Virus record (IMG/VR): IMGVR_UViG_3300050821_003855 | Span: 1-31,229 of that record | Reading direction: 5' to 3' (one strand) | Source of the DNA: a virus | Length of the DNA stretch: 31,229 nt | Part shown: positions 5,254 to 29,208 of the stretch, in pieces | Layout of the letters: each line of letters opens with the position of its first letter | Position numbering within the stretch: position 1 is the first letter of the stretch | The notes under the pieces: generated by a model | What the model saw: only the letters and a program-made list of their open reading frames with translations | What the model was told of the DNA's origin: nothing | Database searches by the model: none | Position numbers and translations under genes: made by a program

Positions 5254-7281
5254 TTAAGCTCCTACAGATGAGATCCTCGCTTCCAACTGCTGGATCGCGC
5301 GGAACAGGTGGGCGAACATCGCCATCGGATCGATATGATCGACCGGGTCCACCGCCTCGTCTGACACGGCCTCCATCACCGCATCCGGCAATGTCTGGCG
5401 GATATCGGTGCTGATGAGCCCGTATGGCACGGGCGGCATGTTGTAGTCTTCACGCCATTCGAATGCGCGTATCGGCGTGGCGACGATCGCGGCCAAACTG
5501 TCGAAGTCTTCGGCCTCGCGGATGTTGCGCTTGAACCGCGCATCGCTGCGGTAGGTATTGGCGAACCATCCGCTGCCATCTGAATCGATCCAATGCATGG
5601 TGACGCCGCTCATGCCGAGTTGGCGCACGCGCTGGCTGTTGTCGCCCTGGATCACTTCGCGCTGGTCGCCGTTGCAGAACCGCCAGAACGTCGTCCCATC
5701 GAACATAAACGCGATGTTGTAGGCCGGCCCCCTGCCTTGATAGACGATGCCGTCGTTGGTCACGTATGCGCCGTTGCCGGACGAGGCATAGAGCCATCCG
5801 GCCGCCCACAGATTGGCGTTGGCATAGACCGTGCCGGCTACCGAGACATTGTTGTTGACGAAGAGCGTGTCGTCGACGGTCAGGTTCTGGTAGAACACCC
5901 CGGATTGGCTATAGACCGTGCCGTTGCAATTGATGCTGCCATTAACCTGGGCCCAGCCGGCGGTCGTGGTGGACCCATACATGGTGATGTAGCCGTTGTT
6001 ATCGACCAGCATGTGCCCGGACGATGGATTGGCGGAGCCATCCATGTTGCCGAGCCACAGGCCAGAGCCGTCGGCCCAGAAACCGACCGCGACGCCGCCG
6101 GTCCAGTAGGCGCAGACCGACGGAGAATACGCGCCAGCGATGCTGAGGATACGCCCGGCATTGGAGCGATAGGTGCCGCTGTTAGAGAGGTTGCCCTGGA
6201 AGTCGAGCGTCATCCAGTAACCGTTCTGACCCCAGCCGCGGGTGCCCGTCGCGCCGTCCCAATAGTCATACCAATTGCCGGCCCATTGCCGGTAACGATA
6301 GCGGCCGTCCCAGTTGTTAACGAAGTCGCCGAGGTTGGCAAAGTAAGTGGTGCCGGCATTCCATGTGTTGCCATAGACGGTGAGGCTTGAATTGACGACC
6401 AGTCCGCCGGTAATGGTTCCTCCAGCGAGTGGTAAATAGTTGCCCGCTACGCCACCGACGTAGCCCGTGGTCGCGATGGCACCGACACCTGTGCCGTCGA
6501 CCGCCATCTCGACGAAGGAACCGTCCCAGCCGAACGCGAGATGGTGCTGCCCCCAGTAACCGCCGAGGCCAGGGAATGCGATGCCGGTGCTGCCCACGCC
6601 GAGCGTTCCGCTCATCACCCCGCCGGCCAAAGGCACATAGGGCAGCAACGCGCCGTTGACGGTCGGCGGGTGCGAGAAGTTTACGACACCCGTCGCACGG
6701 TTGATCGCCAGCGGTGCGTCGAGATAGGTGCCAGCGTCGCTGTAGCGTGCGATGGTGAAATTAGAACCGGAGTTGCTGCCTTGCTCCGGCGCATTGTCAG
6801 CGAACACCGTCGCCCAGCGGAGCAACGTTCCGGTGTAGCCGAGCAGCTGCGCGCCCTGGCCTTGCTGGCGGCTCAGGCTGATCTGCGCCCACGTCCCCGC
6901 CGTCGCGGTGATCCCGAACGTGCTGGCGTTGATCTGCAACGGCCCGGTCAATGTGCCGCCGGTGAGCGGCAGGAAGTTCGTGCCAATCGAAGACTGCGCG
7001 ACGTGAACCACGGCAGCGCGGAAATGCGCCTCCAGCGCCGCCAGCCCGCCCGGCGTTCCGTCGTCCAGCATGTCCTGGCCGATTTCGTCGACGGTGAACT
7101 GGCCGATCATGTGCGACACGATCGACGCCTGCCGCCACACCTTATTCAATTGTATGGACAGCGCTGTGCCGGTGCTAAAGCCGAGGATGCGCGCGGTAAA
7201 ACCCGGGTCGATATAGGCAGCCTGCGTCAGCACATCCGCAGCCGGATCGCCCGCGAAAGTTTGGAAGTCGTTGGTCGCCAC
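5254..7281 (-). CDS. Tail fibre with C-terminal S74 intramolecular chaperone, 675 aa
   Basis: GTG start at 7281 with AAGGGGA upstream. Residues ~1-90 form a helical attachment region. Then come repeated beta modules opening with [24 protein letters not shown] and LPLAGGTITGGL, typical of trimeric phage fibres. A long Gly/Ser/Tyr/Trp-rich shaft (~300-575) follows. The C-terminal ~97 residues are a peptidase_S74 chaperone: SDARFK, with S579 and K584 at the five-residue spacing of the Ser-Lys dyad, then SLAAIVATPIRAFEW and PYGLIS. In this family the domain folds the trimer and then cleaves itself off before the serine. The role is receptor binding at the baseplate. It follows the DUF2612 gene. 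Confidence 0.9.
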   Translation of the reverse strand: MATNDFQTFAGDPAADVLTQAAYIDPGFTARILGFSTGTALSIQLNKVWRQASIVSHMIGQFTVDEIGQDMLDDGTPGGLAALEAHFRAAVVHVAQSSIGTNFLPLTGGTLTGPLQINASTFGITATAGTWAQISLSRQQGQGAQLLGYTGTLLRWATVFADNAPEQGSNSGSNFTIARYSDAGTYLDAPLAINRATGVVNFSHPPTVNGALLPYVPLAGGVMSGTLGVGSTGIAFPGLGGYWGQHHLAFGWDGSFVEMAVDGTGVGAIATTGYVGGVAGNYLPLAGGTITGGLVVNSSLTVYGNTWNAGTTYFANLGDFVNNWDGRYRYRQWAGNWYDYWDGATGTRGWGQNGYWMTLDFQGNLSNSGTYRSNAGRILSIAGAYSPSVCAYWTGGVAVGFWADGSGLWLGNMDGSANPSSGHMLVDNNGYITMYGSTTTAGWAQVNGSINCNGTVYSQSGVFYQNLTVDDTLFVNNNVSVAGTVYANANLWAAGWLYASSGNGAYVTNDGIVYQGRGPAYNIAFMFDGTTFWRFCNGDQREVIQGDNSQRVRQLGMSGVTMHWIDSDGSGWFANTYRSDARFKRNIREAEDFDSLAAIVATPIRAFEWREDYNMPPVPYGLISTDIRQTLPDAVMEAVSDEAVDPVDHIDPMAMFAHLFRAIQQLEARISSVGA

Positions 7282-11266: not shown

Positions 11267-12069
11267 GGCGATGCCTTGTGATAACCAGGGCCACCCAGCA
11301 GCGTCTGCGCGCTCGAGTTATCCTGTGGTGCAGGCTGCTGCGTGCCGCCATCCTGCGGCGCCGCGGTGGTCTGTGGGATCGCCGAATTTTGCGGCGTCTC
11401 CGGCCCGGTGTCGGCCAGATCGATCATGATCACTTCCTGCATATGCACTTCGATGATCAGCGCATACTCGGTGTGTCGGTCGTTGGTGACCGCCAATTCG
11501 GTGATGACCATGTTGCCGGCGCTCGGCTTGCTGCCGGTAAGGCTGCCGGTGGTGAACAGGTTGGACACGGCGCTGCCGAGACTGAGAGAACTCAGCGGGC
11601 TTGTGGTCTGGTCCGGATAGCTGCGCTTGCCGGTGGTCAGGACGAACGCCTGTCGGCTGGTCTGCAGGTCACGCAGCTTCTTGTATATTTGGTTGCAGCG
11701 CTGTTCGGTGAACAGGCCGAGCACATTACTCCCGGTATCGAGCAGCGAGGCGCCGCCGGCAATCGCACCGATCCCCGCCTGCACCAGCCCACCGACAATG
11801 TTGGAATTCGAAAAGCCGCACCGCATCGTCACGGTCTTCGGCAGCATGAACATATGATCGGAGACCGTCGTATTGGTTGCCACCGGATGCTGCGTCACCT
11901 GGGCGCGGTCGCTGAAATGCTCCTCGATAGTAACATCTGGAATAATGGCGCTTGTGCCGGCGCCGATCGAACGCGGCGCGCGGATGAATGCCGGCATCAG
12001 GCCGGACGCTGACAGCGCCTGCTGGCCAACGCCAGCAAACACCGATACGCCCATCAAGGCGCCGCTCAT
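11263..12069 (-). CDS. Dit-like baseplate/tail protein, 268 aa
   Basis: The core has the Dit_like phage tail pattern: VTIEEHFSDRAQVTQHPVAT, then SDHMFMLPKTVTMRCGFSNS, LRDLQTSRQAFVLTTGKRSY, NMVITELAVTNDRHTEYAL and MQEVIMIDL. This fold forms a ring linking tube and hub. The C-terminal ~45 residues are a glutamine/proline-rich, likely disordered extension (PQTTAAPQDGGTQQPAPQDN) beyond the domain. A glycine/alanine-rich helix around 95-110 interrupts the core. ATG at 12069 overlaps the tape measure stop. Confidence 0.82.
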   Translation of the reverse strand: MSGALMGVSVFAGVGQQALSASGLMPAFIRAPRSIGAGTSAIIPDVTIEEHFSDRAQVTQHPVATNTTVSDHMFMLPKTVTMRCGFSNSNIVGGLVQAGIGAIAGGASLLDTGSNVLGLFTEQRCNQIYKKLRDLQTSRQAFVLTTGKRSYPDQTTSPLSSLSLGSAVSNLFTTGSLTGSKPSAGNMVITELAVTNDRHTEYALIIEVHMQEVIMIDLADTGPETPQNSAIPQTTAAPQDGGTQQPAPQDNSSAQTLLGGPGYHKASP

Positions 12070-14261
12070 CGCAGCACGTTCGCGGTGTTGCGCACCATCG
12101 TCTCATTGACGCGGGTTTGCGCCCGATGGACATGGGCAGCGGTTTCCTGCGCATTGGCGCCGCCCTCGACGTGAATCGTGGTCTGCTGGTGCAGCGTGAC
12201 ATTGGTAGCGCCATCGCCATCGGTTTGTCTGCCAGCGGTGACAGCACCGGGGGGTTCGCCGCCCGGCTTAAGCGCCAGCTGAATGCCGCCCATGATCTGC
12301 GCTGGGGTCAATGCGCCACTCGAGATCGAGCGGCCTTCATGTTTGAATTGTTCCTCCAGCAGCCGCTCGAGAACGTTCGGATCGGCGTGGGCGACGTCAA
12401 ACTGCGCGTTGGGATCCATGCCGAGCTTGTCGACGTAGGACAGCTGTGCCCAGCCATGCAGCGCTCCGGCCAGCGTCGTGCCGTAGCGCGCCTGATTGCG
12501 TATCATCAGTTTTACCGCCGCGGCGACGCCCTCCTGCATCGATGAGAACACCGCCATGGTGTGCTGGTCGTGGGCTTGCGGGTCGGTGTATTGAAAGCGC
12601 CCCGAGGCGCCTTCCCAGTCGGCGTAATTCATGTTGCCGGGGTTATTCGCCCGCGTGCCGTAATCGCCGACCGTGCCGGGCAGATTGGCGAGCAGTGGCG
12701 GCGCGCCGGCTCCGTTGTAGCGGGGAAGCACAGCGCCCGTGACCGGCGCAGCCGACGCTGATGGAATGATCTCCCGCTTGGCCCATTGCAGCGCGTCGTT
12801 TGCATACTCCCAGAACTGGCTGGCGCCTTCCTCGTGCATCTTCTTGATGTCGTCGGAACGCCCCTTGCCGGAAATCCAGTCGACGATGGCATCGCTGCCC
12901 TTGTTCAATTGGTCTTGCAGCCAGTCGGTGATCATCACCGAAATCGCGACGCCTACACCCGCGCGGACCAAGCCCCCTATGGTCGCGGCCGTTCCGACCG
13001 TCGCACCAGACGCTGCGCCTGCGCCTGCGGCTGCCCCAGCGCCTGCGGCACCAGCGGCGCCGAAAATCGCGCGCCACAACATGCCGCCCATACCCATCCA
13101 AGCCCCGGCGCCGATCACTCCCAGGGCGGCTGCGATGGACCAGAGGTCGACCTTGATGCCAGCAATGCAGACGCTGAGATCGCCGAACTTGTCGACCCAA
13201 CTCCAATCCCAGTGACTGGTGCCGCCCCGCTCATAGGTGGCGAGGTCGTCTAACAGCAGCACCAGCGCGGACAGACCAGCGACCATCCAACCGATAGGCG
13301 ACATCATCATTGCTACGCCGAGGCCGATCAGCGCTTCCGCAGCATAGCGCAGCACGTCGGGCAATTGGCCGAACAACTGGAAGATCTCTTGCAGGCCATG
13401 AACGAGGTGGCTGCCGACATCAATCAGGTCAGTGAGCAGCGCGAGGAACACGGAAATCGCTGTTGCCGCGGCTTTCAACAGAGCGTTGATCTGCGGCATG
13501 TTGTCTTTGATTATGTCGAACAGCCGGTTCAACAGCGGCAACAACTGCGGCAGCAACGCCGCGCTGAATGCAGCGCGCATCGCCCCGAACTCCTCAGTGA
13601 TGCCGCGCCACGCATTCATGTATTCGTGCGCGGTCTTGCCTGCCTCCTTCTGCTTTTCCTCGGTCAGCCCGATCGCCTCGTAGACCTGCTTATGGACCTG
13701 GGCGAAATGCTCCATCTCGCCCGACGTCATCGCCAGCATGGTTTGCACGTTGATGCCGAAGCTCTCGGCCAGCGCTCGGGCCATAGCGAACTGCTGACGC
13801 TGCGCGTCGGTGCCGTGCATGAATTCAAAAGTGCCGCCGCGCTCGCGCAGCACCTCGCCAAGTTGCTTAAATTGCTCTGCGGTATCCGTCGCGTTGATGC
13901 CAAGCATCTTCAGGAAGCCGGAGCCGGCGCTGCCGTAACGCGACGCCCAGTCGGCGAAGCCGGCCATCGACGCCTTGGCCTCTTCGCTGGAGACGCCGAG
14001 GTTGGACATCGCGAAGCTGATGGCGCGGATGTTCTCGACGGATGTGCCCATCCGCATCGACATCCAATAGAGTTTCTCGCCCGCCTCGGCGAGCGACACC
14101 GACAGCTTCACCAGCGCGCCGGTCAGCAGGGTGAGCTCAGCCGCCAGCCCCTTGGCCGACAGCGCACCGCGCGCCAGTCCCTGCAGGAAGCTCTGCTGCG
14201 AGGCAGAGTCGACCGTGTAGCGAACCGAGACGAGGAACTCTTGTAAGGTGGTCGCCGCCAT
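12066..14261 (-). CDS. Tape measure protein with C-terminal lysozyme-like domain, 731 aa
   Basis: The N-terminal region is helical with the phage tail tape measure pattern (LQEFLVSVRYTVDSASQQSF, then MRMGTSVENIRAISFAMSNL). Hydrophobic helices near the middle (ISVFLALLTDLIDV; IGLGVAMMMSPIGWMVAGLS; a Gly/Ala-rich stretch) may insert into the inner membrane. A C-terminal domain (~530-650) begins NNPGNMNYADW and continues VFSSMQEGVAAAVKLMIRN, with a Tyr and Trp-rich core resembling lysozyme or transglycosylase domains of tail proteins that clear peptidoglycan; the catalytic glutamate is not certain from pattern alone. It sets tail length. It follows the hub gene directly (TGATG overlap). Confidence 0.88.
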   Translation of the reverse strand: MAATTLQEFLVSVRYTVDSASQQSFLQGLARGALSAKGLAAELTLLTGALVKLSVSLAEAGEKLYWMSMRMGTSVENIRAISFAMSNLGVSSEEAKASMAGFADWASRYGSAGSGFLKMLGINATDTAEQFKQLGEVLRERGGTFEFMHGTDAQRQQFAMARALAESFGINVQTMLAMTSGEMEHFAQVHKQVYEAIGLTEEKQKEAGKTAHEYMNAWRGITEEFGAMRAAFSAALLPQLLPLLNRLFDIIKDNMPQINALLKAAATAISVFLALLTDLIDVGSHLVHGLQEIFQLFGQLPDVLRYAAEALIGLGVAMMMSPIGWMVAGLSALVLLLDDLATYERGGTSHWDWSWVDKFGDLSVCIAGIKVDLWSIAAALGVIGAGAWMGMGGMLWRAIFGAAGAAGAGAAAGAGAASGATVGTAATIGGLVRAGVGVAISVMITDWLQDQLNKGSDAIVDWISGKGRSDDIKKMHEEGASQFWEYANDALQWAKREIIPSASAAPVTGAVLPRYNGAGAPPLLANLPGTVGDYGTRANNPGNMNYADWEGASGRFQYTDPQAHDQHTMAVFSSMQEGVAAAVKLMIRNQARYGTTLAGALHGWAQLSYVDKLGMDPNAQFDVAHADPNVLERLLEEQFKHEGRSISSGALTPAQIMGGIQLALKPGGEPPGAVTAGRQTDGDGATNVTLHQQTTIHVEGGANAQETAAHVHRAQTRVNETMVRNTANVLR

Positions 14262-15466
14262 CAGCCGAGCTTCGGCGCTTGGCTGGCGGGATTGGCGGCC
14301 TGGGTGATCACGTCGGTATACCAGGGATTGCCGCGGGTATCGCCGGAGTGCTTCACCGACCAGACTTTGTAGACGCCATCCTGCGCGCCGCCGATATGCA
14401 CAGCAGCCTGCTGGAATTGCACCTGTTGCACCTCCTCGGGCAATCCACTGCCGCCCGGCACCGGGCTGGTTTGCGACAAGGTCTTGCGGGTGATCTCATC
14501 ATTGTTGAGATGGATCTGAGTGAACGGCAGGATCGCCGGGTTGAGCAGACACCGCGCACTCATGCCGCCATCGACGTTCTGACTCGGTATGCCGATCATG
14601 CCGGTCTTGTAGTTGAATTCGATGATCGGCGTGTTGGGGTCTGCTGGCGCCAGATTGTCGCCGGTCTTCAGGATATTGACCCGGCCTACAGCGTCTATGT
14701 AGACAAACCCGCCGACGCTCTGTGCGGTGTCACGCAGGATCTCGCGCGGCATTCCATAGAGCGTGCGCCCGCGCGGTGACTTCACGTCCCCCATGCCAGG
14801 GGTCAACACGCCGAGCTTGACGCCTGGATTGTCCTTCGCCATCGCATCGACGCAGGCCTGCACCACATCTTTCTGGGTGTAGCCGGCCGGCAGCGTGGTA
14901 TTGATCACCGCTTGGTTGTGCGCAACGTCGAAGCTGTTGGCGTAGATACGCAAAAATGTATCGGTGGAATTGCTGTCGCGGCCCCGCTCATACCAGACCA
15001 CGTCCCCGGTAAATATCATGCTGCCACCCGACTTGTAGCCCTGCGGCAGTATCGGGCTGCTGGGGTGCGGAAACTGATAGCCGGCGACCAGGACGACGTT
15101 GGTGTATTGCGCGGCGATCTGGTTGGCGAGGCTCGGCGGCACATTGTAGACCGTCGCCGTCAGTTTCCATGGCATATGCGAGGTCACCAACTCGACGTCG
15201 AACACAATGCGGAAGTCCGCCAGCGAGAGGGCGCCGCCGCCTTGGGTCCGGCTTGCCGAACTGGAGCCAACGTCTACGGCAGCTGTCCCGGGCGGCGGCG
15301 TCTGTTGCCCCACCACCAGATCCCAGGAGCGCAGCCATTTCTTGTTGCTCGCGGTCGATGCCGGAATCGTCGGCGCAGGCGGCGTGGCCGGCTGCGTGTT
15401 GGTGATGGAAAAGTCCGGCGCGCCTGGGGTGTCTGCTGGGATGTTGTCCCACAAGGTGACGCTCAT
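14261..15466 (-). CDS. Baseplate hub protein (gpD/gp27-like), 401 aa
   Basis: A disordered, proline- and threonine-rich N-terminus (~1-75) precedes the hub pattern: FRIVFDVELVTSHMPWKLTA, TVYNVPPSLANQI, VVLVAGYQFP, IFTGDVVWYERGRDSNSTDT, FLRIYANSFD. Then come VVQACVDAMAK and TGMIGIPSQNVDGGMSARCL, LNP; the last is typical of phage hubs. The protein forms the trimeric base on which the spike sits. ATG at 15466 lies inside the stop codon of the frameshifted chaperone product (ATGA), so its translation may be coupled to the frameshift frame. In related phages this gene usually lies after the tape measure gene; here it lies before. Confidence 0.8.
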   Translation of the reverse strand: MSVTLWDNIPADTPGAPDFSITNTQPATPPAPTIPASTASNKKWLRSWDLVVGQQTPPPGTAAVDVGSSSASRTQGGGALSLADFRIVFDVELVTSHMPWKLTATVYNVPPSLANQIAAQYTNVVLVAGYQFPHPSSPILPQGYKSGGSMIFTGDVVWYERGRDSNSTDTFLRIYANSFDVAHNQAVINTTLPAGYTQKDVVQACVDAMAKDNPGVKLGVLTPGMGDVKSPRGRTLYGMPREILRDTAQSVGGFVYIDAVGRVNILKTGDNLAPADPNTPIIEFNYKTGMIGIPSQNVDGGMSARCLLNPAILPFTQIHLNNDEITRKTLSQTSPVPGGSGLPEEVQQVQFQQAAVHIGGAQDGVYKVWSVKHSGDTRGNPWYTDVITQAANPASQAPKLG

Positions 15467-16103
15467 TTCTGTCGTTCCAATGCTGCGCGCAATCGACGCT
15501 CATTCTCGGCTTCGACGTCGAGCGCATGATGCGCCAGGGCGACGTGCTCGAGATCGATCGAGCCATCAAGCAGGCTCTCCATGCGGTAGATGCCACGCAA
15601 TACCGGTCGCATCAGATACCAGTCCTCGTAGGTCACATATTCGACGCCGCCAGGGTTGGGCGGGTCGGGGAGGCCTGACCGCTCTCTGACGGCCTGATAG
15701 ACAAAAAACCCGAGAGATTGTCCCGCACAACGTTGCTGGTGATCTGCATGATGTCGCCCAGGTTCGCCAGATCCTCAAACATGAACGTCTTGGAGCGTGG
15801 CTCGAAAATCGGCCCCCATACCGGAGCGCCGCCGTTGGGCGATATCTGGCGCTGCACCACGGCGGCACAGGTCATGATGACGAAATCGAGGTCTTCGTCG
15901 GCGATGTCGTGCAGCGCGGCCAGGAACTTTTCCATACCGACAAGGTTGGGATCGATGCCGGCATCCTCGGGTTTTGTGCCCTGCATCTCCTCGCGCATCA
16001 GCTTCAGTAGCGGCGGCCCGATGCGCTTCAGCACGTGCATCTGCTTGAACGTGTCCAGCTTGCGCGCGCGATAGGTAAAATCGCCGACCTGGAAGTCCAG
16101 CAT
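15463..16103 (-). CDS. Frameshifted tail assembly chaperone, G-T form, about 213 aa
   Basis: Predicted -1 frameshift product of the chaperone gene. The zero frame is read to codon 134 (TTG, 15704-15702) of the slippery heptamer T-TTT-TTG. The ribosome would then read 79 more codons from 15702 (starting VYQAVRERSGLPDPP, with EYVTYEDWYLMRPVLRGIYR and a final helix LRAALERQK), ending at TGA 15465-15463. The extra frame fills the otherwise empty 170 bases before the hub gene and is protein-like throughout. In lambda gpG/gpGT, P2 gpE/E' and related systems, the extended form bridges tape measure and tube subunits during assembly; the role here is by analogy. This entry spans the shift, so coordinates are not one continuous frame. 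Confidence 0.8.
15633..16103 (-). CDS. Tail assembly chaperone, short (G) form, 156 aa
   Basis: ATG at 16103, three bases after the tube gene stop. The helical pattern FTYRARKLDTFKQMHVLKRI, FLAALHDIADEDLDFVIMTC, VWGPIF and MFEDLANLGDIMQITSNVVR is that of phage tail assembly chaperones found directly after DUF3277 tube genes. After the slippery site the zero frame adds a short Ser/Pro/Arg-rich tail and stops at 15633. The expected majority product is this form, with a minority frameshifted form. Chaperones of this kind are not part of the mature virion. Confidence 0.85.
   Translation of the reverse strand: MLDFQVGDFTYRARKLDTFKQMHVLKRIGPPLLKLMREEMQGTKPEDAGIDPNLVGMEKFLAALHDIADEDLDFVIMTCAAVVQRQISPNGGAPVWGPIFEPRSKTFMFEDLANLGDIMQITSNVVRDNLSGFLSIRPSESGQASPTRPTLAASNM
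15702..15708 (-). promoter_or_regulatory. Programmed -1 frameshift slippery site (T TTT TTG)
   Basis: On the minus strand the codons are GGT TTT TTG, so T_TTT_TTG fits the X_XXY_YYZ rule for -1 slippage. The downstream -1 frame is open to the hub gene. A weak 5-base stem AGGCC (15695-15691) / GGCCT (15675-15671) lies seven bases downstream; I would not vouch for a strong stimulatory structure. Confidence 0.85.
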
Positions 16104-16106
16104 GGA

Positions 16107-16565
16107 TTATGCTCCCACGCCGGCCGTGCCGTCGCCCAGGATGCCGTTGATGGCACCAGCGTGGAACGCCCATTCCTGCACCCCACCATCCTTCGCATAG
16201 TTCACGTTCGGCCAGCGCTGGAAGGCACACTGCGTGCAGCTGATCTGATCGCCGCGCGCCGGATCGGAGATGACGATTGTGTTGTTGCCCCACAGCGCCG
16301 ACGACACGCGTTGCAAGTCCAGCATGACCGATAGCTGCTGATTGGTCGGCGACGTCTTCAGGAAGCGCAGCGTGACGGTGCCGGAATTGCCAGCGTGCAG
16401 GCTGTGCATGACCGAGCCGTCGGCGCCGACGGTCATGGTATTTTTTTCCTCGGTCATGGCGATGGAAATGCCTTCCTCGGCATTGCCGCTGCCATAGCCG
16501 AGCGAGAACGCGCCGCCAGGGCCGACAATCGATGCGGCCACATCGATAAATGAGTACGTGCTCAA
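16107..16565 (-). CDS. Tail tube protein, DUF3277 family, 152 aa
   Basis: The sequence has the whole DUF3277 pattern: STYSFIDVAASIVGPGGAF, LGYGSGNAEEGISI, NTMTVGADGSVMHSLHAGNS, TLRFLKTSPTN, WGNNTIVISDP and a final WAFHAGAINGILGDG. The start is TTG at 16565, preceded by AAAGGAGGT at 16579-16571, five bases away. It is the inner tube of the contractile tail. Neighbours are a membrane protein gene upstream and the assembly chaperone downstream. A rare TTG start with a very strong ribosome-binding site is notable for what must be an abundant subunit. Confidence 0.93.
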   Translation of the reverse strand: MSTYSFIDVAASIVGPGGAFSLGYGSGNAEEGISIAMTEEKNTMTVGADGSVMHSLHAGNSGTVTLRFLKTSPTNQQLSVMLDLQRVSSALWGNNTIVISDPARGDQISCTQCAFQRWPNVNYAKDGGVQEWAFHAGAINGILGDGTAGVGA

Positions 16566-16620: not shown

Positions 16621-16830
16621 CTAGCGCGCGGGCCTGTTGGTCAGGCAGCTTTCGATGATCCTCTGGATCATCTGATTGCGGACCTCGGTGTTGTGCTGAA
16701 AGGTCCAGGCCGCAACACCGAGGAACACAATGTTTAGGATCACCAGCAACAGAAAGGCCGGCGGGAGAGCGCGGATCAGCTTTTCACTGACCGTAGCAAT
16801 CACGCCAGCCTTGCCGTCGCTGTCCGACAT
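16621..16830 (-). CDS. Small single-pass membrane protein, 69 aa
   Basis: A hydrophilic N-terminus (~1-20), one transmembrane segment (~22-44: LPPAFLLLVILNIVFLGVAA) and a polar helical C-terminus (QHNTEVRNQMIQRIIESCL). ATG at 16830 overlaps the stop of the proline-rich gene. Such proteins can be holin-like or spanin-like, or can be tail-associated; nothing here decides between them. It sits between sheath and tube genes rather than in a lysis cassette, and 55 bases separate it from the tube gene, which has its own strong ribosome-binding site. Confidence 0.7.
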   Translation of the reverse strand: MSDSDGKAGVIATVSEKLIRALPPAFLLLVILNIVFLGVAAWTFQHNTEVRNQMIQRIIESCLTNRPAR

Positions 16831-17417
16831 CAGGTCTTAGGCGCAGGCGTCGGCTGGATCGGCTGGCTCACCGTTGGCGGCGCACCACCCGGCGCGATCG
16901 GATGGGTCGGACGTTCGCCACCAGGCGCGATCGGATGGGTCGCTATTCCACCGGGCGGTGTCGGCAGCGGATAACCGACCGACAGCGACGGATCGACCAC
17001 GGTGTAGCCAACGACCTCCAGACCGCCGCCCGCCGATACCGCGACGATGGCAACCAAGAACTTCTGCGACGGAAGCCCATGATCCGGTCGCGGCTGCTGG
17101 CCGGGGAGCCCTTGATCAGGATGCGGCGGCGCGCCTCCCACGGGAGGTAGGCCCTGGTCAGGGTGTGGTGGCGAACCCGGAGGTATGATCGGACCGCCCC
17201 CGATGACCGGAGGCCAGATCGAACCCGGTGGCATTGGGTAATCCGGCGGCAGCGGCGTCGGCGGCCAAATCGACACAGGCGGCGGCCAAATACCGGGAGG
17301 CGGCTTCGGCAGCGCGATGGGATGCGCAGGGTGCGCGGGTGGGATGGGCAGCGAGTTGTCCGGTCCGCCGGGGATAATGATGACGCTGCCTTCAGGAATC
17401 GGAACAGTAGTTGCCAT
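16830..17417 (-). CDS. Proline-rich repetitive protein, 195 aa
   Basis: ATG at 17417 with GGAGA upstream; an in-frame start at 17471 adds a poorly coding stretch. After VPIEGSVIIIPGGP-like strands, proline-rich repeats fill the middle: IWPP three times between ~50 and ~80, then HPDQGLP twice and PDHGLP (~97-125). A short non-repetitive beta segment (KFLVAIVAVSAGGGLEVVGY) is followed by THPIAPGG repeats to the end. The layout suggests an extended, mostly disordered chain with one small ordered domain. Its position after the sheath and before the tube suggests a virion or assembly accessory; no known domain is recognised. Confidence 0.6.
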   Translation of the reverse strand: MATTVPIPEGSVIIIPGGPDNSLPIPPAHPAHPIALPKPPPGIWPPPVSIWPPTPLPPDYPMPPGSIWPPVIGGGPIIPPGSPPHPDQGLPPVGGAPPHPDQGLPGQQPRPDHGLPSQKFLVAIVAVSAGGGLEVVGYTVVDPSLSVGYPLPTPPGGIATHPIAPGGERPTHPIAPGGAPPTVSQPIQPTPAPKT

Positions 17418-17500
17418 GAAGCTTGTCTCCAGTTTGAGGTGTAGACACGCAGGTCCATACGCTCTCGCCACGCGACTGCGTGTGACGGTATGGGGTCGTT

Positions 17501-19369
17501 CTATCTGTTAACGTTTACGATTACGTTCGCAAAATGTACGGCTCCGGCGAGCTTGATCCCCGCCTGAATCGTCGGTGCGATGCGCTGTTCGCGGATCGCC
17601 TGCGGCTGGCTTTCGACCAGCGGAGCCCAGATGTAGTAGCCCTTGGGCAACATCTGACCGAACGCGATCTGGCCGAACCCCGGCGCGTTCCATTGCCCCG
17701 GCGCGATCATGCCGTTGACCACGCCCTGCTGTATGCTGTTCTCCACCGTGGCGACCAGAATATGGATGCCCTGGTTGGTCTGCGGGATCTTGCTGGGTGC
17801 GGTGTAAAGCACATTGAATAGGTCGGTCTGGATGCGATTGGCCAGCCAGTCGGCGTTGTGGCGTTCGTCGAAGAACAGCCCGGAGCACATCACGCCCTCT
17901 TGGATGATCGCCACGTCGTTGCTGTAGAACACGAACACGTTGGCGCGTTTCAGTTTGAGCGCAGCGGCTTGGTTCTCGGTCAGGATCTCGCCGGAGACGC
18001 CGGGCTCTTGTTTGAATTTGAGGGTAATCACCGTGTTGGAGGCCTCGAAATCCACGGTGAATGCGCGGCCATACATCGAACAGCAGGCGTAGGGGCTCGA
18101 ACTGCTGAACTGGCCGAACGTGCGCGTGTAGCCGAGCGCCGTCATCTGCGAAAAGATGTCGTTGGTCACCGTCGGATCGAGCGCGTCGGTATCCTGCGAG
18201 GTGAAACCGAAGATCGAACTCGGGTCGCAGCCTTCGATGAATTCCGCCACGTTGACGTAGTCGGTCACCGAGAGGTCGGTGGTCAGCGCGAAGGTCAGGC
18301 CATACCACTGTGGATGCGCGCGCAACGCGATGGCGGCCTGCAACGCGGTCTCGGCGGCGATGCCGTCGACCGGCACCGAGGCGCCGGAGGCCTGCGTCAG
18401 CTTCAGCGGCGTCGAGACGTCCTGGCCGACGCCGGCCGACGAGGCATAGGAGATGGTCGAGGTCGGGCCGGTGGTGGTCGACTGGATGTGAAACCGCGTG
18501 CCGTCAAACCAGACGGTGCCGCCGGTCAGCGCATTGTTGAGAATGGTCGCTGCGCCGTTCAGGTTGGTGACGCCGGAGAAATCCATCCCCGCCGTGCCGT
18601 TGGCGGGTGTCTGCGCCAGGGCCGATGTGAGCTTCAACGTCGCCGACACGTCGGTGCCGGCCGCGCCGGCGCTGGCGGCGGTGATGGTGGAAGCGGTGCC
18701 GGTGGTCGAACTGCGAATGACGAACGCCCCGAGCGTGGTGTTCCAGGTGCAGGTGCCATGCGTGGTCAGCGCTGTGCTGATGAGGGCCGCCGCACTGGTG
18801 AGATTGGTCGGCGTGTCGGTGCCGACCATCGCGGTGAAATCGATCGGCCCGGTCTGCACCAATGTGCCGTTGATGGTGATGCTGAACTGGCCGTTGGTGA
18901 CGCCCTGGAGCGTGGTCACCAGAGCATCCTGATCGATCGGACTGAACGATCCGCCCGTCAGGTTCGCCGAGGTTGCCTGCAACGTGTGGACGATGCCGTC
19001 GATGGTGATTTGCATCGTGCCGTTGGTGACCAGCTTCAGCTGGTTTAACAGCGTTGCCTGCTGCGGCGGTGTCAGGATGCCGCCGTGCAGGATCGCCGAC
19101 GAACCGGTCTGCGCGAAGCGTCCGACGTAGAGGATCGCTGGCTGCGGCGACTGGGAGAAAAACAAATCGGCGGCCAGGAATTCCGGTGACGTGCTGCCGA
19201 AGTCGGTCGCCACGCCATCGAGCGTCGCGTACTGCCGGAGGCGTTCGGACACATCGATGACCGGCGACGGGCCGGCAATGCACAGCGCGCCGAAGTTGCG
19301 CAACGGCGTTGCCAGCGGGCTCATGTTGATCTGCACGTTCACCACATCCGAAACAGAAAGGCCCGGCAT
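17501..19369 (-). CDS. Tail sheath protein, DUF3383 family, 622 aa
   Basis: The N-terminal pattern VNVQINMSPLATPLRNFGAL, then LRQYATLDGVATDFGSTSPE and AILYVGRF, marks DUF3383 sheaths. A long insertion (~105-345) contains about three related beta modules (NGTMQITIDG, NGQFSITINGTLVQTGPIDF, then NLNGAATILNNAL-type units with STTG). The rest is conserved: GLTFALTTDLSVTDYVNVAE, LGYTRTFGQFSSSSPYACCS, GVMCSGLFFDERHNADWLAN, then a C-terminal helix and VNVNR. It forms the contractile sheath. Ribosome-binding site AAAGGAGG (19385-19378) lies within the end of the HNH gene. The tandem modules probably decorate the outer surface. Confidence 0.93.
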   Translation of the reverse strand: MPGLSVSDVVNVQINMSPLATPLRNFGALCIAGPSPVIDVSERLRQYATLDGVATDFGSTSPEFLAADLFFSQSPQPAILYVGRFAQTGSSAILHGGILTPPQQATLLNQLKLVTNGTMQITIDGIVHTLQATSANLTGGSFSPIDQDALVTTLQGVTNGQFSITINGTLVQTGPIDFTAMVGTDTPTNLTSAAALISTALTTHGTCTWNTTLGAFVIRSSTTGTASTITAASAGAAGTDVSATLKLTSALAQTPANGTAGMDFSGVTNLNGAATILNNALTGGTVWFDGTRFHIQSTTTGPTSTISYASSAGVGQDVSTPLKLTQASGASVPVDGIAAETALQAAIALRAHPQWYGLTFALTTDLSVTDYVNVAEFIEGCDPSSIFGFTSQDTDALDPTVTNDIFSQMTALGYTRTFGQFSSSSPYACCSMYGRAFTVDFEASNTVITLKFKQEPGVSGEILTENQAAALKLKRANVFVFYSNDVAIIQEGVMCSGLFFDERHNADWLANRIQTDLFNVLYTAPSKIPQTNQGIHILVATVENSIQQGVVNGMIAPGQWNAPGFGQIAFGQMLPKGYYIWAPLVESQPQAIREQRIAPTIQAGIKLAGAVHFANVIVNVNR

Positions 19370-19372
19370 TTT

Positions 19373-20044
19373 TCATTCCTCCTTTGCTCTACAAGCGAGC
19401 CACTCCTCCATCGTCTTAGTGCCTTTCGACACGTTGCACCGACGGCAGAGGGCTTGCAGATTCTCCGGCCAATTGGACCCGCCACGGATCAGCGGCGTGA
19501 TGTGATCGACGTGGAAGCGGCGCAGCAGGTCACAGCCGCATCCGTTGCAGCGATAACCCTGTCGTTCGAGTTGTTCGTCTATGTCGTCGGCGGTAAACGT
19601 CCCCGGCGCCGATCTCAATCGGGCCAGATAGCGTTGTGTCTTGGCGACGTTCTTGGACGGATTAGCTCGTGACCAAACGAGAGACCTCCCGGCGTTCCGT
19701 TCGCGGACAAGATCGGGATTAGCCCGTCGCCATCGTTTGGCTCTTTCGCGATCTGCGGCGCGGCGGTCGGCGAGATGTTTGAGTTTGGATTTGGCAGTGC
19801 GTTTCCTTGCTAACGCTGCCGCCGCTTCCGGGTCCTTTTCTACCCAGCGATCATGGTTGGCTTGCACCTTCTCAGGATTGGCAACGCGCCATTTGTCGTG
19901 GCGTTCCTTCTTGCAGACGACGCATTTCCAATCGAGCACCGACCGCGCGGCGATGTGCCCGTTCACACATGGCTCGCCTGTGAAGTATCGCTTCAGCCCC
20001 CGCGCAACAGCTTCGGTCCGCGCGGCATTCTTCTGCCACACCAT
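19373..20044 (-). CDS. HNH homing-type endonuclease, 223 aa
   Basis: The N-terminal zinc-binding motif is C26-x3-H30 then C41-x2-C44 within KRYFTGEPCVNGH, as in many phage HNH enzymes. A long basic, Lys/Arg-rich helical linker (~46-140) follows. The catalytic HNH core is C166-x2-C169, H178-V-D180-H181, N195, and C200-x2-C203, with HVDHITPLIRGGSNWPENLQ between. It sits between two structural genes with a weak ribosome-binding site (ATG at 20044), and looks like a free-standing mobile endonuclease. Its last codons include the ribosome-binding site of the sheath gene. No intron ends are visible. Confidence 0.92.
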   Translation of the reverse strand: MVWQKNAARTEAVARGLKRYFTGEPCVNGHIAARSVLDWKCVVCKKERHDKWRVANPEKVQANHDRWVEKDPEAAAALARKRTAKSKLKHLADRRAADRERAKRWRRANPDLVRERNAGRSLVWSRANPSKNVAKTQRYLARLRSAPGTFTADDIDEQLERQGYRCNGCGCDLLRRFHVDHITPLIRGGSNWPENLQALCRRCNVSKGTKTMEEWLACRAKEE

Positions 20045-27460: not shown

Positions 27461-27703
27461 CTACAGCTTCCTGGTGACCAGCACCTCGTCCCCGCTCCAC
27501 GTCATCTCCCAGGCCTGCCCGCATGTCGTGCAGTGGTTGGTGGCGATGTAGACATTCGGGTCCGAGTTGGTGGCGTTGCCGTTGCCGTCATAGACGATGT
27601 CCCACTCCAGCGCCGGCTCCTGCGGAGCGACCACGCGGGTGATCCGGCACAGCGCTGGATCGTTTGGGCAGTCTGGATTGCGCTGGCGCGCGATGCCGCT
27701 CAT
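27461..27703 (-). CDS. Cysteine-containing small protein, 80 aa
   Basis: ATG at 27703 overlaps the tail fibre stop (TGATG). The N-terminus has C12 and C19 in CPNDPALC; the C-terminus has CTTCGQAWEMTWSGDEVLV with a CxxC. Four cysteines in two pairs, with a WEMTW strand after the second, suggest a small metal-binding or disulfide-linked module in a beta-rich protein. No family is recognised. It is the first gene after the fibre. Confidence 0.65.
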   Translation of the reverse strand: MSGIARQRNPDCPNDPALCRITRVVAPQEPALEWDIVYDGNGNATNSDPNVYIATNHCTTCGQAWEMTWSGDEVLVTRKL

Positions 27704-29208
27704 CAGTGCAGCCTTGCTTCCAGGGTTTCGACGCGCGCGGTCAGTGCTGTGTTCATCGCAGCGAGTTCCTTGATCGCATTGACCGCGGCGGCGAGGATCG
27801 GTGCGTCGGTGATGCCAAGCGATGGTTCGTCACCGTCATCCGGCATTGCCATGCCGACGACGCGCACAGCCTCGGGAATGATCGGGCGCAGCTGTTGCGC
27901 ACTGAAGCCGATTTCCGGCGGGTGAATGACCATCGTCGCATCGTCCGGCACAATGCCTGGAATGCGGATGAAGCCGATCGGCTCTATTTGCAGGATCTCC
28001 TTCAGCCCGACCGTCGCTGGTGCAATGTTCTGCTTGCCGCGCACATCAGAGTTGGAGGTGTAGCCGGCAGCGTTGATCCAGCCACTGAATTGTGCGGTGG
28101 CACCGCCGTTGGTCGCATACAGCGTGGCATCGACGTATAAATCCCAGAATGTAGGGGTGCTGTGGTAATCGACGTTCTGGTTGGGCGTGTAGGCTCCAGC
28201 TGCTTTCCACCGCGCGTCGCCCTGTCCAGCCGTCAGCAACTGCCCCTGACCGCCACCATTGATCGCGTAGTTCAGCGCGTAGCCATCCCAGCCGAACGCA
28301 TACCAAACGCCGCTGTTGTAGACGCCCGTGAAGTTAAGGCCGAGGCTACCGTTGATCGTGATATTGCTGATGGTCGGATTGTTGAAATATGGGTTGCTGC
28401 CATAATTGACGACTTGGTCCGGCGTGTAAGTGTTGATGCTCAGGAACTGGCTGTAGCACCACTGCGGGCTGATGATCTGATATTGATAGCCGCCATCGAC
28501 GTAACATGTGACCCACGAACCATCCCAGCCGAATGCGTGGGTGTGGCCGCCGCTGTAGTTTGCGTAGCTGATGCCGGTGCCGAACGTGGTGATCGTGCCG
28601 ACCGGGTCGATGTAGAACTGCGCCGCCGCCGTCCCCGTGCCGCTGCCGATCCACGCCAGAGCACCATTGCTCCGGTTCCACTGCCACCACCAGCCGCTTT
28701 GAAATTGAAAATTGAGGGTGCTCGCGTCGCCAGCCAGCACGTAGTCCGATGCGACATCGCGCGCGGCATAGACCTGCGCGGCATAAACGCCGCCTCCCGC
28801 GGAGATATATCCGTCCGCCTGGATATTGCCGTTCGAGACGACAGCGTTCGCGGTGACGGTGCTGTTCACCGTGAGAGGGCCGGTCAGCGTGCCGCCAGAC
28901 AAAGGCAGGCCGGCGTTCGCATCGACATACTGCTGGGTCGCTGCCTCCAACGGCGCAGCTGGATCGGCCGCCAGCGTCAATGGGCCGGTCAGGGTGCCGC
29001 CGCTCCTCAGCAGACCGTTTGCTGCCGTTATATCGGCAGCGACCAGCGCGACTGCCCCGGTTCGCGTGTTGAACGACACGACACCGGCCGATCCGCCAGC
29101 ACCGGCACTGGCGACCCACTTGGTGCCGTCCCACGTCCAGACGACGCCGTTGGGGCCGGTGTAGGTCAGGCCATTGGTGGGCGCGTCGGGGAAGTTCAGC
29201 GCGGCCAC
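27703..29208 (-). CDS. Tail fibre with C-terminal S74 chaperone, 501 aa
   Basis: ATG at 29208, three bases after the upstream fibre stop. The front is ALNFPDAPTNGLTYTGPNGV then a carbohydrate-like VWTWDGTKWV strand, SFNTRTGAVALVAADITAAN, GLLRSGGTLTGPLTLAADPA, and a second LPLSGGTLTGPL. A beta-rich Trp/Tyr/Gly shaft follows. The last 115 residues are an S74 chaperone: SDVRGK with S387 and K392 at the five-residue dyad spacing, then LKEILQIEPIGFIRI and a C-terminal helix. It is expected to trimerise and self-cleave. It shares the SFN-RTG/SGGTLTG module with its neighbour. Confidence 0.88.
   Translation of the reverse strand: MAALNFPDAPTNGLTYTGPNGVVWTWDGTKWVASAGAGGSAGVVSFNTRTGAVALVAADITAANGLLRSGGTLTGPLTLAADPAAPLEAATQQYVDANAGLPLSGGTLTGPLTVNSTVTANAVVSNGNIQADGYISAGGGVYAAQVYAARDVASDYVLAGDASTLNFQFQSGWWWQWNRSNGALAWIGSGTGTAAAQFYIDPVGTITTFGTGISYANYSGGHTHAFGWDGSWVTCYVDGGYQYQIISPQWCYSQFLSINTYTPDQVVNYGSNPYFNNPTISNITINGSLGLNFTGVYNSGVWYAFGWDGYALNYAINGGGQGQLLTAGQGDARWKAAGAYTPNQNVDYHSTPTFWDLYVDATLYATNGGATAQFSGWINAAGYTSNSDVRGKQNIAPATVGLKEILQIEPIGFIRIPGIVPDDATMVIHPPEIGFSAQQLRPIIPEAVRVVGMAMPDDGDEPSLGITDAPILAAAVNAIKELAAMNTALTARVETLEARLH

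Follow-up and report, generated by a model that had tools for sequence, protein, structure and literature searches.

The gene that runs from 16103 to 15463 on the minus strand of the window (the whole stretch of viral DNA analysed, 31,229 nucleotides) very probably encodes two tail assembly chaperones, the second through programmed -1 ribosomal frameshifting, a reading to which we assign a probability of about 95% from the sequence and its relatives. Most ribosomes would stop at 15633 and release a chaperone of 156 aa, and a minority would slip by -1 at GGGTTTTTTG, where the two tRNAs could re-pair at T_TTT_TTG, at G_GGT_TTT or at both. The slipped ribosomes would produce a 213-aa fusion ending in a DUF6889 domain. 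Frameshifting in tail chaperones is a classical and widely conserved feature of tailed phages, and its mechanism is textbook knowledge.

The zero-frame chaperone ORF (15633-16103, minus strand) starts with an ATG at 16103 and its translation ends at a TGA at 15635-15633, giving a gpG-like short form. The protein matched Pfam family PF21822 (Phage_TAC_15) with an E-value of 4e-15 and a score of 56.9 bits, above the curated cut-off of 22, as well as phrog_1688, annotated as tail assembly chaperone (E 6.7e-17). Its structure was modelled with confidence (pLDDT 92.7), and a fold search in BFVD retrieved predicted viral tail assembly chaperones, the best named one with an E-value of 4e-8. The tape measure chaperone of Moogle was a weak fold match (E 0.65), and comparison with the PDB gave nothing at E ≤ 0.001, neither by sequence nor by fold. 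The structure alignments had as their rows only the window and the contig loci. An earlier note on this DNA had placed the end of the short frame at 15633, about 170 bases before the hub gene; this proved right, the computed gap being 166 nt.

In the zero frame, the sequence at 15710-15702 (minus strand) reads GGT TTT TTG. The heptamer T_TTT_TTG (15702-15708), which had been pinpointed exactly in the earlier note, is in frame and is the same as the heptamer of P2 E/E'. A second heptamer, G_GGT_TTT (15705-15711), overlaps it in the same frame and had been overlooked; the full site (15711-15702) holds both. G_GGT_TTT would allow full re-pairing of the Phe tRNA in the A-site. It is common to the window and to the relatives L002/L003 and L004, and its position reads AAATTTT, CCCTTTT or GGGTTTT in many other relatives. 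Because the two candidate heptamers overlap, the junction residue may be either Leu or Phe, the fusion reading SGFLVYQ after slippage at T_TTT_TTG and SGFFVYQ after slippage at G_GGT_TTT. No significant RNA fold was found 3' of the site in the window and two relatives (z of -0.8, -1.1 and -1.3). A search for an intrinsic terminator at the T run gave a single weak stem of 5 pairs, with shuffles giving 0.3.

The -1 frame extension, the putative T-like part, occupies 15463-15702 (minus strand) and consists of 79 open codons (VYQAVRER...LERQK, in full VYQAVRERSGLPDPPNPGGVEYVTYEDWYLMRPVLRGIYRMESLLDGSIDLEHVALAHHALDVEAENERRLRAALERQK) closed by a TGA (15465-15463); the ATG of the following gene (15466-15464) overlaps this stop. 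The earlier note was right in every coordinate and length that it gave for the extension, namely the 79 codons, the TGA lying on the hub ATG and the fusion of about 213 aa. The extension matched Pfam family PF21829 (DUF6889) with an E-value of 1.3e-12 and a score of 47.7 bits, above the curated cut-off of 23.9, and phrog_4364 with an E-value of 5.5e-16; the domain itself lies at 15475-15585. Both families are listed as of unknown function, and we found no mention of DUF6889 in the literature searched. In the structure model, a disordered linker is followed by a helix-loop-long helix arrangement, with the short helix preceding the long one. This model had no match in the PDB at E ≤ 0.001, so that a T-like role rests on context and not on structure. 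From that context, a role as the T-like domain of the fusion is likely for DUF6889/phrog_4364.

Evidence that the -1 frame is used as coding sequence was obtained from substitution rates, conservation of this frame among relatives being a check that the earlier note had proposed. For codons 24-79, dN/dS was 0.089 between the window and L003, 0.093 between the window and L004 and 0.252 between L003 and L004, so that the core gave values of 0.09 to 0.25. The same pairwise comparisons gave 0.69 to 1.04 for codons 1-23, and for the other two frames the ratio exceeded 1 when the whole extension was taken. As judged from these ratios, the core of the extension is under strong purifying selection, and the first 23 or so codons are a fast-evolving, loosely constrained linker. 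Since these first codons evolve fast, the case for a conserved fusion depends on the open frame and the domain downstream.

To these pairwise data we added a comparison across viral contigs, genomes and phage records, which yielded 106 loci with the extension domain, 90 of them distinct. A chaperone ORF lay upstream of the domain in all 106. We looked for relatives lacking the frame or the heptamer, the finding by which the earlier note would have been contradicted; in all of the distinct loci (90/90) the extension lay in frame -1 relative to the chaperone, and a canonical in-frame XXXYYYZ heptamer was present in the searched region in 84/90, nearly always at the same codon. As the loci share ancestry, these counts are not independent events and overstate independence. 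Apart from the two closest relatives, the chaperones shared only 17 to 39% identity with that of the window. The search of genome contigs contributed two loci only, both with the same arrangement, and AB560486, which is phage KPP12 and not KPP10, was left out. Six further phages had the site and a -1 extension, which was DUF6889 in Mulock, SEN34, GZ7 and yong1 and divergent in RHEph04 and Erebus. The latter two (L111, 2468-3111, and L112, 2473-3095, respectively) are alphaproteobacterial phages with a more distant chaperone. Their slippery site is CCCTTTTTTC or a T run, and their -1 extension contains a EALDLKGAMSEKA motif that the DUF6889-based profile missed; this extension is possibly a divergent form of the DUF6889 domain.

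In 79/85 relatives a canonical heptamer fell in a span of four codon steps where the chaperone domain ends, compared with a background of 14 canonical in-frame heptamers in 10,540 codon steps of related chaperone gene bodies, and its presence at the homologous site is therefore beyond chance. That the -1 frame encodes a recognised family, DUF6889, likewise speaks against chance. Downstream of the site, the overlap contained no -1-frame stop in 1536 codons, compared with 161/3440 (about the chance rate) over the 40 codons that precede the site and with 51/1450 for third-frame stops in the overlap region. Like the codon choice at the site and the substitution rates, this count does not hinge on which heptamers are selected. 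The heptamers themselves varied and included TTTTTTC, TTTTTTT, TTTTTTG, AAATTTT, CCCTTTT, CCCTTTC, GGGTTTT, GGGAAAT and others. The six of 90 loci devoid of a canonical heptamer kept a TTT codon at the site, mostly as NNT TTT. More generally, the conserved Phe of the slip site was encoded by TTT in 82/86 loci, against 198/437 for the other Phe codons of the same genes (Fisher p = 2e-20), and this preference was also found in the G+C-rich loci (35/38 at the site against 46/182 elsewhere, p = 7e-15). The preceding codon ended in T in 85/86 cases and encoded Gly, Asn, Pro, Ser, Asp, Arg or Thr. Because TTT is preferred, and because the preceding codon has T in third position whatever the residue encoded, the codon counts indicate that selection at the site acts on the nucleotides, beyond the amino acids. 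The changing heptamer shows that the slip site is maintained while its letters change.

How this region is annotated in related phages bears on whether the DUF6889 part could be an independent small gene that has a start codon of its own. We examined 14 annotated phages. The two frames were joined in 2 (Magia and Mulock), the extension was a separate small CDS in 6 (ZHS, BgManors32, MD-2021a, GZ7, yong1 and Erebus) and it was omitted in 6 (IFTN9, Ab105-1phi, BUCTT20, YP3, SEN34 and RHEph04). This supports the remark in the earlier note that an ORF-only annotation would miss the fusion. A small gene is what six of these records propose, and the window does offer in-frame starts, for example a GTG at 15636 or an ATG at 15612 (57 and 49 codons from the end, respectively). 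Yet a gene with its own start could lie in any frame, and all 90 are in -1. In addition, 44/84 loci lacked an ATG, GTG or TTG located 18 or more codons ahead of the ESL core (i.e., upstream of the conserved domain), and in L002/L003 a CTG stands in place of the GTG candidate of the window. Without exception, the open -1 frame extended back through the slippery site, where TTT is selected. We therefore consider a separate gene very unlikely.

Even less probable is that the fusion arises from slippage of RNA polymerase on the T run rather than from slippage of the ribosome. The site in the window has six consecutive T, and many relatives have 6-7, but for transcriptional slippage to be efficient, a run of six is short. 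Moreover, many relatives only have short runs (CCCTTTTA, AAATTTTA and GGGAAATA). With runs of three or four bases in many of them, a mechanism depending on run length cannot be the conserved one, and we rejected transcriptional slippage in this capacity since several relatives lack a run. The loci do share an NNT_TTT in phase with the codons, which is what re-pairing of tRNAs would predict. Finally, an error in sequencing, or a gene in decay whose frameshift has become fixed, is conceivable in that only one metagenomic viral contig underlies the window; it can be practically dismissed, as isolated phages and 90 distinct loci showed the same -1 arrangement (on which ground sequencing error was rejected) and the core of the extension is under purifying selection.

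The position of the frameshifted gene is that expected for a tail chaperone with an extension, in that the short ORF and the overlapping -1 ORF stand between the tube and tape measure genes, with one hub-like gene intervening. In the order of transcription, the genes are the sheath (DUF3383), the probable tube (KPP10_Orf10), the chaperone, the hub-like gene (phrog_196), the tape measure (phrog_2276) and a Dit-like protein; going by these family matches, the neighbourhood is a contractile-tail module. The sheath (17501-19369, minus strand) matched DUF3383 (E 5.8e-135) and the tail sheath family phrog_205 (E 3.3e-119). The presumed partner of the extension is a probable tail tube protein encoded upstream of the chaperone at 16107-16565 (minus strand; Pfam KPP10_Orf10, E 1.7e-58), and its homologue in phage Magia is annotated as putative tail tube. 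The baseplate hub-like gene whose ATG overlaps the TGA of the extension lies at 14261-15466 (minus strand; phrog_196, E 7.3e-51), and the tape measure protein, the presumed client of the chaperone, at 12066-14261 (minus strand; phrog_2276, E 3.3e-46).

Several other features of this region were observed. A hub-like gene between the chaperone and the tape measure is present in the window and its two closest relatives (an ORF ending at 6681, plus strand, in L003; 1802-2974, plus strand, in L004), while in Magia, Mulock, SEN34 and others the chaperone is directly followed, among the annotated genes, by the tape measure or a long tail protein. Between sheath and tube, the window encodes a proline-rich protein with HPDQGLP-like repeats and no Pfam match (16830-17471, minus strand), and a similar repeat protein is found in L003 (2203-2751, plus strand). 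At 622 aa the sheath is a long protein; DUF3383 matches it in three stretches, and the first half of the protein contains an apparently inserted, internally repetitive region. An HNH endonuclease gene (19373-20044, minus strand) lies directly upstream of the sheath gene, within the tail module. Two proteins of the window (5254-7281 and 27703-29208, both on the minus strand) have a C-terminal Peptidase_S74 domain (endosialidase-type intramolecular chaperone).

The earlier note had likened the locus to lambda gpG/gpGT and to P2 E/E'. The likeness is one of arrangement and mechanism. The heptamer of lambda is GGGAAAG, unlike that of the window, and lambda is a siphophage; what is alike is a short chaperone and its -1 fusion ahead of the tape measure gene, a pair whose function is established in lambda. 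There, gpG and gpGT are produced at a ratio of about 30:1, and each binds the tape measure protein; the tube protein is brought in by the T part before gpG and gpGT leave (PMC5009743). In P2, the -1 frameshift takes place at TTTTTTG, with no downstream hairpin reported (PMC3091744). P2 has in common with the window this identical heptamer, a contractile tail and the place between tube and tape measure; it differs in the size of the products (91 aa for E, 142 aa for E+E'). By analogy with lambda and P2, slippage in the window would occur at a low set rate, both forms would bind the tape measure protein, and the extension would recruit tail tube subunits.

Closer examples are Burkholderia phage Magia and Klebsiella phage Mulock, whose chaperone has already been annotated as a frameshift product (PMC7883833). 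They have a homologous chaperone and extension, the -1 frame, the same slip codon and the same position after the tube gene, but their heptamers (CCCTTTT in Magia, GGGAAATTTTTTG in Mulock) differ from those of the window, and their tape measure gene comes directly next, whereas a hub-like gene stands between in the window. A paper of December 2025 argued that the TAC locus of Pakpunavirus (phage Adele), Vandenendeviridae and Andersonviridae is frameshifted; a -1 open frame was present in every genome examined of Pakpunavirus and relatives, with a slippery poly-T motif (GTTTTT) where the chaperone ends (PMC12846349). These phage families are other than that of the window and resemble it in the -1 open frame and the poly-T site.

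Taken by itself, the locus of the window appears to be a well-supported but ordinary case of tail-chaperone frameshifting. What is added here is the link between DUF6889/phrog_4364 and a T-like role, together with the size of the comparative support: a Pfam/PHROG family listed as unknown would thus have a likely role, as the T-like domain of a frameshifted tail chaperone, and most records mis-annotate the extension that contains it. We think it rather probable that DUF6889 (PF21829, phrog_4364) is not free-standing and exists only as a frameshift-encoded, tube-recruiting domain of TAC_15 chaperones across hundreds of myophages, in a family that shifts between the overlapping slip registers NNT_TTT and T_TTT_TTN. 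The heptamer that changes at a fixed codon provides a comparative data set on slippery sites. If the proposal is true, this two-register family would be a natural series showing how the ratio of the two products is kept while the letters of the site drift.
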